DNA from: Hellea sp.
GTDB lineage: Bacteria; Pseudomonadota; Alphaproteobacteria; Caulobacterales; Maricaulaceae
Reading direction: 5' to 3'
Length of the DNA stretch: 47,774 nt
Assembly (NCBI GenBank): GCA_020628495.1
Contig: JAHDFA010000005.1
Location: 1-47,774 of the forward strand
Both the position numbers and the translations under genes were made by a program. Shown one piece after another: positions 8,436 to 47,774 of the stretch (its first letter is position 1; each line of letters opens with the position of its first letter). The notes beneath the pieces are model-generated. The model saw only the letters and a list, made by a program, of their open reading frames with translations, was not told where the DNA came from and did no database searches.

Positions 8436-9623
8436 ATGGTGACCGCGCCGCTGAGCATTTTGTTCGTTACGCGCCATTATCCTCCCTTAGTGTCAGGTGG
8501 ATGCCGCCGATCAATGTTAATGGTGCGTGGCTTGCGGGAAGCAGGCGCGCGCGTCAGCGTTCTTGCACCGGTGCTGAACGGGGATGAACTTGCTTCGGGT
8601 TTGGCTGTACCCCATCCACAACCCGAACCCGATCTTGAGGCAGTTGATGCCGCGCTGCCAATTTCGGTAAAGCTGAAGAATTTTTTTCGGAGGTGGCTGC
8701 TTTATCCTGATGCAGATATCCGCTGGTGCCGCCGTGCTGCAAAAGCGGCCATTCAGCACTGGCCGGATGGCTTTGATTGGGTGATAACATCCAGCCCGCC
8801 GGAGTCCCTTCATGTCGCTGGCCGTATGCTACAAAGACATTGGTCTTGCGCTTGGCATGCAGATATTCGTGATTTTTGGTTCCAATACCCGCTTGTCCCA
8901 GTCCGCCGTTACGCCTTTAGACGATGGCTTGAGCGACCCTTCGCGAAATCATTGCTGGCCAAAGCAGACATTGTCACGGCTGTGTCGCAGCCTATGGCAG
9001 AGGAGGCGGCGAAAATTAGCGGGCGCGCGGCGTCCGTGATCAAAAATTTCGTCGATCCGCCGCCGGCACGCGATGCCAATTTCTTTGATGGCTATCCCGA
9101 TAAATCCTTTACGAAAGATATGATTCATGTCGTTTACACTGGGGCTTTCAGCCTTTCCGACCCCAATCGGCATCTGGCGCCTGTGCTGGATGTCTTTAAA
9201 AAGGCGGCGGTAGAGAACCCAGACCTAATCCTGCATCTTGCCGGGCCGCTCACGACGACCGAACAGCGATTAATTGATACGAAGTCTCTGGAAGACCGGG
9301 TTTTTTATCATGGGAGAGTAGATGCTGCGACGGCGCGACAGTTCCAGGTGAATGCCCATGCGCTCATATTGACAGCTGCAGAGGGAACATGTGTCGTCCC
9401 CGGAAAGTTTGCGGAATATAAGGCGGCAGGCGTACCTATTATTGCCATTGGTTCTGGTCCGTGGCGCCAAGGCCTTGGCCGCGAACGAGATGCGAAGGAA
9501 CAGTTGATCGCATTAACGCGAGAGAGAGAAGGCTTGGCGCAATCTGACATTTACGCTCCGCAAGCTGCGGCGAGGGCTGTTTTGGCATTGATGGCGGACG
9601 CCCCGGCTAACGGGAAGATTTAA
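8436..9623 (+). CDS. Glycosyltransferase (GT4-like)
   Basis: ILFVTRHYPPLVSGGCRRSMLMVRGLREAGARVSVLAP N-terminal; GKFAEYKAAGVPIIAIG C-terminal GT-B motif. Confidence 0.8.
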   Translation: MVTAPLSILFVTRHYPPLVSGGCRRSMLMVRGLREAGARVSVLAPVLNGDELASGLAVPHPQPEPDLEAVDAALPISVKLKNFFRRWLLYPDADIRWCRRAAKAAIQHWPDGFDWVITSSPPESLHVAGRMLQRHWSCAWHADIRDFWFQYPLVPVRRYAFRRWLERPFAKSLLAKADIVTAVSQPMAEEAAKISGRAASVIKNFVDPPPARDANFFDGYPDKSFTKDMIHVVYTGAFSLSDPNRHLAPVLDVFKKAAVENPDLILHLAGPLTTTEQRLIDTKSLEDRVFYHGRVDAATARQFQVNAHALILTAAEGTCVVPGKFAEYKAAGVPIIAIGSGPWRQGLGRERDAKEQLIALTREREGLAQSDIYAPQAAARAVLALMADAPANGKI

Positions 9624-11289
9624 ATCGTTCGGTCCACGGTGCGAAAACAACATCTATTGATCGGTGTAACCTGACCCATTTCGCGGCCTCGCTTGTGATA
9701 GAGTTGCACCTTTCCGGCTCAGAAAGTAAAAGTTCGATTGCGTCTTGCCAGGCTTCGGGAGTTGCCGACGACACGATAAATCCTCGACTTTGTTTCGGCC
9801 CAGCCAATTCTCGATGAGGTCTAATATCGGAAAACAGACAGGGCGTCCCTTTCAGCATAGGTTCCAGCGGCTTGAGGGGGGGTACATACTGAAATGTTTT
9901 ATGTCCACTTCGTGGATACGCCATAAGGCTGGCCGCTGAGATTAGGGTGTTAACGTGTTCACGCGACACGTGGCCCATAAACGATACATGTTCCAGCATC
10001 TGTTTTTGTGCTGCTTGTGTTTTTAAGGCTGCGAGAGCCGAGCCCTGACCTGCAATGATGAGATGCCAGGATTTTCCTGTATTGCTATTGTAGGAGAGCG
10101 CGAGCGCATCAATTAAGATGTCGAGTTGCTCATATTGCGTGACTGATCCGGCATACCCAATAACGTCAGTTTCAGGGTCTAAACCCAAAAAATCGCGAAG
10201 CGAATTGTGTGATTCCGGCATTGAATTACCAGTAATATCTATTCCGTTCGGTACGACGCGAATTCGCTTTGGTGAAACACCGTTTTCAATGGCTAGCGAC
10301 TTTAGCCCCTCCGATATAACGAACACTTGGTCAGCGGCGCGCATCAATGCAAACTCCGCACGGTGTTGGATTTCATATGCGGACGTTGCTGCGAAGGCCG
10401 GATCAACTGCGCTTCTTGTGAGATACCAGAGTCCGCGGACGTCATATAGGAATGGGAGGCCAAGCTGCCGTGCCGCTTGAAAAGCGCAATAGCCGGATAA
10501 CCAGTTTGATCCGCTCGCAATAGAGCGCGCGCCCGCCGCCCGAGCCCGAGACGCCAATGCTTCAATTGCGGTCTTCACCAAATGAATGATATCAGCATTT
10601 TTGCCTAAAGCTGCGTAGATTGTCTCTGCATCTTTCAAAAGGCGTTCATTATTCTGAAAATCCAGATTTAGCCCAAGATAAGCGACCTGGACCTCAACTC
10701 CATTCCGTCTGAGCGAGTCCAATATGTGATGTGTTCTGATGCCGTAGCCGCTGGGCGTGCGAGATTTCGCCATACCGCTCACATACAGAAGGGGTTGTGC
10801 GAAAGGGGGACTGAGCCCTGGAGGAGCGAATTTTTCCATCCTGTCAGTTATGGCGATTAAATCTTTGCGCCTTTGGGTGAGCAATGCGTCGCTATCTGGG
10901 GGCAAAGGCCATTGCACTAACGGGTCATTTTGAAGGCCAATATCCCAATCCATATATGGCGCCAGCCGAGTCTGTTGACGACGATAATGAAGCGCTAGAG
11001 CAGAGAAGTGAAACGGTAATGTAAGGCGGTTAATGAGTGAAGATTGCGCTTTTAAAATTCGCGCTCCAATTTGATATCTATAAGATGTTCTTTGTTCGTC
11101 CGTCAGCTCATTCAATGTGGACGAAGATTCGAATACGGACAAACCGTGCGGATACAGCACGGTTTGTCCAAGCAGTTTAATTTTTTGAATTTTGTCGGCG
11201 CTTTGCCATCTTTGAAAAAATGTCTCGCCAATTTGCATGGCCATCAATTGATTCTGACGAGCCCAAGGGCGTGATGCATTGAGTGCCAT
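9607..11289 (-). CDS. Glycosyltransferase (GT4-like)
   Basis: RIRVVPNGIDI, VIGYAGSVTQYEQLDILIDAL, HVSFMGHVSREHVNTLISAASLMAYPR, PLKPLEPMLKGTPCLFSD motifs. Confidence 0.85.
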   Translation of the reverse strand: MALNASRPWARQNQLMAMQIGETFFQRWQSADKIQKIKLLGQTVLYPHGLSVFESSSTLNELTDEQRTSYRYQIGARILKAQSSLINRLTLPFHFSALALHYRRQQTRLAPYMDWDIGLQNDPLVQWPLPPDSDALLTQRRKDLIAITDRMEKFAPPGLSPPFAQPLLYVSGMAKSRTPSGYGIRTHHILDSLRRNGVEVQVAYLGLNLDFQNNERLLKDAETIYAALGKNADIIHLVKTAIEALASRARAAGARSIASGSNWLSGYCAFQAARQLGLPFLYDVRGLWYLTRSAVDPAFAATSAYEIQHRAEFALMRAADQVFVISEGLKSLAIENGVSPKRIRVVPNGIDITGNSMPESHNSLRDFLGLDPETDVIGYAGSVTQYEQLDILIDALALSYNSNTGKSWHLIIAGQGSALAALKTQAAQKQMLEHVSFMGHVSREHVNTLISAASLMAYPRSGHKTFQYVPPLKPLEPMLKGTPCLFSDIRPHRELAGPKQSRGFIVSSATPEAWQDAIELLLSEPERCNSITSEAAKWVRLHRSIDVVFAPWTERFKSSR

Positions 11290-31332: not shown

Positions 31333-31355
31333 AAAGGCTCCCTTTGGGAGCCTTT
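31333..31355. terminator. Bidirectional rho-independent terminator between convergent genes
   Basis: AAAGGCTCCC-TTT-GGGAGCCTTT, perfect 10-bp stem with A-tract before and T-tract at the end of the stem. Confidence 0.85.
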
Positions 31356-45990: not shown

Positions 45991-47349
45991 TCAATATTGA
46001 ATTTTCAGAACCTCATCTGGATTTACGGCCTCAAGGTTCCGATCATATAGCCGAGTTGTTTCAGCACTTTTATGCCCCGCCATTTTGCGCGCTTCCTCCA
46101 GCTCTCCCCCATGGGCGAGATAATTCGTGATGCCCGTCGCGCGTAGGCTGTGGTTCCCGATCTCTCCGTGATAGCCAGCGGCTTTCGCTCTCCGCTGGAT
46201 CATCTTCCAGCTCGCCACGCGAGAATAGGCGTGGCCGGTCAGCGTGCCTTTATGTGGTGTGCCGCCTTGGAAGAGAGGGGCGTCGGGCTGATCGATGAGG
46301 CCGGTAAAGGTGAGGTAGTCATCAATGTAATGGGCGAGAACCTCATGAACCGGCATCTCGTGGACCTTGGTGCGTTTCTCGACCGTGGTAAGATAGCGAA
46401 TATTGCCACGCATTTGATAATCCCGCACGCGCATCCGGCAGACAGCCGAGATCCGAAAGAGGGAATAGGCCATCATCGCGATCATGGCGCGGTCACGATA
46501 ATCGGCTTCGGTTTCCATCGGAATCATGTCGATCATGCGTGCGACGAGGGCGTTCTCCACAATTGGTGTGGCTCCCCGGCCCGACGGCACTTTGGGCAAG
46601 CGTACGGCCCGCGCGACGTTCTTCTCCAGCAGGCCGTGGGCAATACAGGCGTCAAGAAAAGTGCGGACCGCCGAGAGGATTGTGCCGACCGTGCGGGGCT
46701 TGTCATCCACTTGGCCGGTCTCGGGATCGACCTCCTGCACGGAGGCAATGAAGGCCGCGACATGCGACCCGCGCAGGTCTCTAATGTCCTGTAAACGGGC
46801 GCCTTTGGCGTCAGAACCGACCCAATCAAAGAAGCGCTGCAGACCGTTCGCATAGGCCTCGCGCGTGCGGGGATTGGTGTGCTGGATCAGGAAGTCCGCG
46901 AAAACGGCGAGGACGTCTGCCGTCTCATTCGAGCTTTCCACGAGCAGGCGAGGCGGGCAGGGGCGACCGTAATGCTTGCGCGCGAGGAGCTTTAGGCGCG
47001 GAAGATGTTCGGCGCATTCACTCAAGAGGAGATCTATCGCGCAGAGCCGCGCGAGCAGCTCGCGCTCTGTGCATCCGACTTTAGACAGCGCGTCCAGATG
47101 CGCGGCAACATTATCCTCAACAATATCCTCGAGGGTAAGTAAGCCCGCATGATCTTCGAGCCAGTCGAGAAAGTCCGCGCACCCAACCGCGAATTGATCA
47201 TTGCGTGCGGGTTGAAACACACCAGATTGCAGCGCGGCATAACATGCCACGACGTCCTGACCGCTCCGCGCAATAACAGCCGGCGGGACGAGCGATACTG
47301 CGCTTGTTCGCAAATCGCCGTTGTTGGCTGTGGGATATTGTTTTAGCAT
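45991..47349 (-). CDS. Tyrosine recombinase / integrase (Xer-like, with extra N-terminal region)
   Basis: SAM-like core-binding region; YSLFRISAVCRMRVRDY (Arg I), HSLRATGITNYLAHGG (HxxR), GHKSAETTRLYDR (H...Y). Confidence 0.93.
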   Translation of the reverse strand: MLKQYPTANNGDLRTSAVSLVPPAVIARSGQDVVACYAALQSGVFQPARNDQFAVGCADFLDWLEDHAGLLTLEDIVEDNVAAHLDALSKVGCTERELLARLCAIDLLLSECAEHLPRLKLLARKHYGRPCPPRLLVESSNETADVLAVFADFLIQHTNPRTREAYANGLQRFFDWVGSDAKGARLQDIRDLRGSHVAAFIASVQEVDPETGQVDDKPRTVGTILSAVRTFLDACIAHGLLEKNVARAVRLPKVPSGRGATPIVENALVARMIDMIPMETEADYRDRAMIAMMAYSLFRISAVCRMRVRDYQMRGNIRYLTTVEKRTKVHEMPVHEVLAHYIDDYLTFTGLIDQPDAPLFQGGTPHKGTLTGHAYSRVASWKMIQRRAKAAGYHGEIGNHSLRATGITNYLAHGGELEEARKMAGHKSAETTRLYDRNLEAVNPDEVLKIQY

Positions 47350-47350
47350 A

Positions 47351-47378
47351 TGGAAACATAATTTGGATTATGTTTCCT
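47351..47378. promoter_or_regulatory. dif/Xer-core-like inverted repeat adjacent to the recombinase start
   Basis: GGAAACATAA-TTTGGA-TTATGTTTCC: perfect 10-bp arms, 6-bp spacer. Confidence 0.6.
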
Positions 47379-47543
47379 AAGATATAGTGAAGAATAGGGG
47401 GTAAATCAGAACAAATATCAGGCTCTCAGATTGCTCAAAATGTAATTCGTCGTAGTTCAGAAGGAAGGCTCTGCGGCAAATTTGAGACCCTAAAAATGGC
47501 AAATCCGCCCTGAAAAACGTAAGGCAATTAATTTTGTTGGTTT

Positions 47544-47774
47544 TTAAAGAGCTTCGCTCTCGTTCCGCTTTCGTTCCAAAACGTGTCGTAAATGTACACG
47601 ATCATTGTCACTAGGCCAAATAACGGTTGCACCCGCAGTTGCCAGTTCAACAAGCTCTAAATCATCATCACCAGCTACAGCTAAAGCTAAAGCTAAAGCT
47701 AAAGCTAAAGCTGTAGAGATACAAGTTAACAAGCAACTCAATCTAAATCCAGTTGATGCAATTGCTCCACCAGC
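47544..47774 (-). CDS. Partial ORF (3' end only) of unknown function, containing an Ala-Leu repeat; truncated by window end
   Basis: Minus frame open to the window edge: ...LTCISTALALALALALAVAGDDDLELVELATAGATVIWPSDNDRVHLRHVLERKRNESEAL*. The opposite strand is also open here, so coding strand is uncertain. Confidence 0.35.
   Translation of the reverse strand, partial: AGGAIASTGFRLSCLLTCISTALALALALALAVAGDDDLELVELATAGATVIWPSDNDRVHLRHVLERKRNESEAL
47680..47712. repeat. Hexanucleotide tandem repeat (GCTAAA)x5 plus GCT
   Basis: Read directly: GCTAAAGCTAAAGCTAAAGCTAAAGCTAAAGCT. Confidence 0.95.

Follow-up and report, generated by a model that had tools for sequence, protein, structure and literature searches.

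The question raised by this locus is what a perfect inverted repeat does when it stands immediately before the start codon of a tyrosine recombinase gene. The window, that is, the whole stretch of DNA analysed, comprises 47,774 nucleotides of a Hellea sp. genome (contig JAHDFA010000005.1), and contains pst-phoU, a glycan gene cluster, a two-component pair and the recombinase. The repeat and the gene are as follows.

47351..47378, no strand: putative dif-shaped crossover site, 11-6-11, TGGAAACATAA-TTTGGA-TTATGTTTCCT (repeat analysis and co-varying counterparts in relatives)
45991..47349, minus strand: Xer-like tyrosine recombinase of 452 aa (domains, profile scores and alignment)

The perfectly paired part, GGAAACATAAT-TTGG-ATTATGTTTCC, occupies 47352-47377, with 11-bp arms and a 4-bp centre. 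The initial annotation was right that an inverted repeat is present here, though its figure of perfect 10-bp arms around a 6-bp centre is slightly off. When the site is framed as 11-6-11 (47351-47378), the outermost base pair (T/T) is mismatched; the framing with a 6-bp centre was favoured because the centres vary in relatives while the arms co-vary. The recombinase ATG lies at 47349-47347 on the minus strand, leaving the 2-bp gap to the repeat that had been described, and a recount by eye again gave 17 of 28 positions identical to E. coli dif. When perfect repeats with 11-bp arms and a spacer of 4-8 bp were counted, 2 were observed, compared with 0.05 in dinucleotide-preserving shuffles of the whole window. 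The perfect arm in front of the recombinase is 11 bp long, whereas the best one found upstream of 33 other genes in the window is 3-6 bp. The repeat beside the recombinase is not a product of chance. Folded as an RNA hairpin, it was 5 s.d. better than shuffles. Elsewhere in the window, a perfect inverted repeat with 13-bp arms, GGACAAACCGTGC-GGATACA-GCACGGTTTGTCC (11137-11169), lies within a glycosyltransferase CDS (9607-11289, minus strand), and an intergenic terminator-like hairpin, AAAGGCTCCC-TTT-GGGAGCCTTT, was seen at 31333-31355.

The recombinase carries Phage_integrase and SAM-like domains and the catalytic residues R299, K325, H400, R403, H426, and Y435, which are invariant across nine aligned members. 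Of these nine, only the window and Hellea MAG-193 recombinases are extended at the N-terminus, by about 115 aa that the other seven lack. The protein resembles XerD and XerC, but far below the curated cut-offs (92.9 vs 329.6 bits and 85.9 vs 335.15, respectively), and its family forms one clade apart from both, with a support of 100/100. On these two grounds, an XerC or XerD orthologue was ruled out. The NCBIfam XerS model gave 40.2 bits against a cut-off of 267. What the locus encodes is one Xer-like tyrosine recombinase with the full set of catalytic residues. Viral contigs and phages were also searched, and neither a relative nor the site was found in them, a single 30-bp match being due to chance.

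A dif-shaped 11-6-11 repeat adjoins, or lies shortly upstream of, most relatives of the recombinase in the Alphaproteobacteria and on PLSDB plasmids. A conserved site beside orthologous recombinases, proposed earlier as a check, was thus found, with arms that differ by lineage. In the lines below, G001, G003, and G015 are related marine bacteria; the window's own genome is G000. All sites but the last come from relatives in the same order as the window and stand beside the recombinase start codon.

Hellea MAG-193: AGGAAACATAA-TCCAAA-TTATGTTTCCT
G070: TGGAAACCTAA-TACAGC-TTATGTTTCCT
G003 and G015: ATACAACATAA-TGCAGA-TTATGTTGTAT
G001: ATGCACAGAAA-TGTAGA-TTTCTATGCAT
G099: ATCTGACAAAA-TATCGA-TTTTGTCAGAG
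Mesorhizobium plasmid (PLSDB): ATCTATGATAA-TGTTCT-TTATCATAGAT

In many of the plasmid-borne relatives in PLSDB the site was found up to ~1 kb upstream of the gene, often with TGTCCT as its centre, and in a few no site was seen. XerC and XerD orthologues, taken as controls, had no comparable site in the same position, and the distant relatives L194, L195, L199, L201, L217, L218, and L220 had no clear site in the stretch searched. Across 20 distinct sites, 93% of the cells pair, and doubly changed cells numbered 57, compared with 17 in shuffles; sliding of the partner arm abolished the co-variation signal. The AA...TT core is invariant around the variable 6-bp centre. Since a dif-shaped repeat recurs at relatives and its arms co-vary between lineages, the best interpretation of the repeat is as a crossover site used by the enzyme itself. 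This role had been proposed from the start, along with the view that symmetric arms suit a single recombinase; orthologue conservation, arm co-variation, and KOPS convergence (see below) argue well for both.

A symmetric palindrome is the usual target of a dimeric regulator, and the present one, 2 bp from the ATG, overlaps the leader, as would an operator at which a repressor or the recombinase itself controls recombinase expression, with no crossover at the site. However, on plasmids several hundred bp may separate the site from the gene, the 11-6-11 form with its invariant AA...TT core around a variable centre is the shape of a Xer core, and the site falls exactly at the KOPS convergence. 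We consider an operator very improbable. It is harder still to believe that XerC or XerD acts on the palindrome as an IMEX-type mimic of dif, the adjacent recombinase being irrelevant. The dif-like CATAA...TTATG core and the above identity to E. coli dif would fit such a mimic, but the arms follow the recombinase lineage, some lineages lack CATAA (having CAGAAA or CAAAA instead), and the site is kept in three genomes devoid of XerCD.

These three are G001, G003, and G015. Of the 99 family genomes, almost all of which are at least 90% complete, no others lack both XerC and XerD. All three carry the recombinase together with its site (henceforth, the module), and this recombinase is their sole Xer-like protein near that score range. 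If 9 carriers were placed at random over the 99 genomes, the chance that all three XerCD-less genomes would be carriers is ~5e-4, a figure that treats the related, non-independent G003 and G015 as separate. Among the other carriers, XerD is present in G000, and XerC/XerD are not absent in G008, G065, G070, and G099.

The KOPS-like motif GGGNAGGG was counted around the site in each of the three. In G003 (524 kb sampled), the counts were 30+/0- to the left of the site and 2+/37- to the right, the nearest motifs being at -1386 and +3634, and the GC skew switches sign at the site. The corresponding counts were 4+/0- and 0+/15- for G001, and 17+/1- and 0+/1- for G015. A switch in GC skew or KOPS, as at a terminus site, was thus seen in G003, G001, and G015. 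The canonical dif of the genus, AATCGCATAATGATGATTATGAGAAATA, occupies a KOPS convergence in G008 (6+/0- and 0+/4-). No remnant of it was found near the termini of G001, G003, and G015; absence of dif is by itself weak evidence, since the XerCD genomes G002, G004, and G017 likewise gave no canonical dif match with the pattern used. The FtsK gamma domain is retained, with its usual sequence, in all three XerCD-less genomes. Gene orders around dif and around the module are given below, with product names inferred from sequence.

G014 (read backwards): ispA-like - 740 aa - dif - phnP - tatD - holB - tmk - dacA
G003: ispA-like - 740 aa - 288 aa - site - recombinase - kdsB - phnP - tatD - holB - tmk - dacA
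G008 C4 and G000 C41: dif - kdsD - kdsB - phosphoglycerate-mutase-like gene - phnP - tatD
G015: site - recombinase - kdsD - kdsB - phosphoglycerate-mutase-like gene - phnP - tatD

One flank of the G001 site matches G003 and G014. Because the genes flanking dif in XerCD genomes also flank the module in the XerCD-less ones, dif appears to have been replaced in place by the module. It may be noted separately that in G065 the gene of a further Xer-like recombinase (C164:4077-4784) has a canonical-type dif (C164:3673-3694, L086) ~400 bp away, which is possibly an IMEX-like or resolution element.

The module is sporadic, occurring in 16 of 398 genomes of the order, and it is also found on plasmids. 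In G008, the recombinase relative lies on the 113-kb contig C1 along with Rep3 and ParA; if this contig is circular, its KOPS run outward from parA (53-54 kb) and meet at the site (1.2 kb). An XerCD-type dif, CGCATAATGTATCTTATGAGAA, is present on the same contig at 108455-108476 (L167, about 8455), which places it ~6 kb from the site of the single recombinase when the contig junction is crossed; its centre differs from that of the chromosomal dif. Contig C10 of G099 carries RepC, ParA, TrbI, and TraE; here, too, the KOPS point away from parA (50 kb) on its two sides and toward the site (64.8 kb). On C41 of G070 the KOPS converge at the recombinase site (175 kb), with a second polarity switch between 120 and 143 kb. 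The module is also carried by pCB4 and G332, in which a check of the KOPS showed no clear polarity. Recombinase and cognate site were thus found on replicons with rep/par genes, consistent with plasmid resolution, in G008 C1, G099 C10, and PLSDB plasmids.

The chromosomal recombinase of G001 is 89% identical to the plasmid copy of G008, and those of G003 and G015 group with that of G065 in the tree. Plasmids look like the source of the module. Two separate displacements are possible, since the copies of G003/G015 and of G001 come from different branches of the family; the FtsK tree did not discriminate between one and two losses of XerCD (AU p = 0.31). Probably, then, a plasmid-borne recombinase and its site displaced XerCD/dif in place on the chromosomes of a marine alphaproteobacterial genus, and possibly did so twice.

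The window's own genome, G000 (66% complete), differs from these three in keeping XerD, on C2, and the canonical dif, on C41, where it stands in its native context beside kdsD-kdsB. XerC was not found in this 66% complete assembly; an apparent XerC on C46 proved to be a different tyrosine recombinase, truncated where the contig ends. As XerD and the canonical dif are kept, the window copy is not the sole system in G000. Near the site, two more features come into play.

46955..46962, plus strand: KOPS-like GGGNAGGG, the copy nearest the site, pointing to it
47379..47455, no strand: flank outside the site, 77/78 bases identical to Hellea MAG-193, another genus (sequence comparison)

Six further KOPS of the window lie at 2180, 18479, 23407, 29649, 35712, and 38386. 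All seven are on the plus strand, none being on the minus strand, and all point to the site; the contig ends 397 bp past the site, so that this holds for one side only. None of the rep/par genes tested for was found in the window, and its pst-phoU end matches chromosomal contigs of relatives. On balance, the module is somewhat likely to be a passenger in G000, either left over from an integrated plasmid or lying on a second replicon, with XerCD/dif still resolving chromosome dimers. The retained XerD and dif speak for this, as does the coexistence of both systems in G008, G065, G070, G099, and G150, the last being probably Hellea MAG-193. The uniform polarity of the seven KOPS toward the site speaks against it, though any position on the left replichore would give the same picture. 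Such a passenger is compatible with, rather than opposed to, the reading of the locus as a dimer-resolution module.

The outer flank brings in a different explanation, in which the module is part of an integrative element, with the repeat as an att core recombining with a second copy elsewhere. The tyrosine recombinase fold and the PHROG matches, which are integrases, agree with it. The identity with Hellea MAG-193 is lost a few bp from the site, the recombinase proteins being ~70% identical, and both contigs end close to the site, which fits a mobile insert. The near-identical flank and the break at the site suggest that flanks were exchanged or that an element entered here; 47379..47455 could be a promoter/leader or the edge of such an element. 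A second copy flanking an island, which the initial annotation had proposed to look for, was, however, absent from G000 (66% complete), G001, G003, G008, and G015, and a single copy per genome is as expected for a resolution site. A three-mismatch match at G000 C21:4005 was rejected as near noise level. Moreover, the module occupies the chromosomal dif slot or lies opposite parA on plasmids, not at island flanks, the arms are symmetric, and no extra arm-type sites were seen. An integrase with its attachment site is, for these reasons, unlikely. The earlier suggestion of an attachment site at the edge of an element does not describe the main role, the sites being single and without flanking pairs, but a weaker signal of an edge persists in the flank. 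The outer flank (47378-47774) ends in AGCTAA tandem units (47673-47714).

Taken together, the repeat and the adjacent recombinase very probably constitute a compact single-recombinase dimer-resolution module, with the repeat as its crossover (dif-equivalent) site. The best reading is that the module is carried by plasmids and is able to displace XerCD/dif. At the level of sequence, it is documented that the site co-varies with the recombinase lineage, occurs on plasmids, and occupies the dif slot at the KOPS convergence in G001, G003, and G015. Each 11-bp arm would be bound by one recombinase subunit, and two sites would synapse in a dimeric replicon. The R-K-H-R-H-Y site (Y435) would then exchange strands at both edges of the 6-bp centre, leaving monomers. 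On replicons with KOPS polarity, the two sites would be brought together at the septum by FtsK. The window's own copy would resolve dimers of whatever replicon carries it; its role in G000, with XerD and dif kept, is less certain.

The known single-recombinase Xer systems belong to a few large groups in which the switch is ancient. In the present case, the switch falls inside a single genus, and the plasmid donor, the coexisting, and the replaced state are all represented, so that displacement of a near-universal chromosome-maintenance system becomes directly testable. If the reading is true, chromosome dimer resolution passes from host to plasmid machinery, and those three states are found in close relatives. 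Use of the module in place of the chromosomal dif is visible from the relatives, not from the window alone. It would be a natural exception to the view that the chromosomal dif position and FtsK-linked control are not easily gained by systems other than XerCD (PMC11724359). The module may also offer a compact tool of one enzyme and one site, with many co-varying site specificities. A literature search, subscription journals and preprints excepted, turned up no report of the recombinase family, of the site, or of XerCD-less Alphaproteobacteria whose dif slot is occupied by a plasmid-type module.

Among known systems, XerS and XerH are single recombinases with linked sites (PMC2731167), and XerL is found in the Legionellales, being plasmid-encoded in Coxiella (PMC9765430). 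The present module resembles XerL/dif of the Legionellales in its one recombinase, long uninterrupted inverted arms, and terminus-near site; like XerL it can be plasmid-encoded and is missed by XerC/XerD homology searches (PMC9765430). XerL, however, is gammaproteobacterial, and in L. pneumophila more than 400 kb separate dif from xerL, whereas the present site adjoins its gene, the two systems being compared by description. With XerS/difSL of streptococci and lactococci and XerH/difH of epsilonproteobacteria, the module shares a terminus site linked to a single recombinase, XerCD having been replaced (PMC2731167). It differs from them in its protein (40 bits with the XerS model vs 267) and in its distribution, for XerS and XerH are fixed in their groups, whereas the module is sporadic, occurs also on plasmids, and appears to displace dif within one genus. 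Coexistence of XerS with XerCD in Lactobacillus helveticus has been noted as a possible intermediate (PMC3025954). Like XerCD/dif, the module has a 28-bp 11-6-11 site, an AA-6-TT core, KOPS convergence, and FtsK gamma present, and KOPS polarity toward XerCD sites is known on large replicons (PMC11724359, PMC13342612); unlike it, the module has symmetric arms and one recombinase outside the XerC and XerD clades. Among plasmid-encoded resolution systems, Cre/loxP of P1 is similar in being a self-encoded tyrosine recombinase with a nearby site, toward which the GC skew and KOPS of P1 are biased (PMC11724359); the present module differs from it in its Xer-type 11-6-11 site and in what appears to be a natural takeover of the chromosomal dif position.
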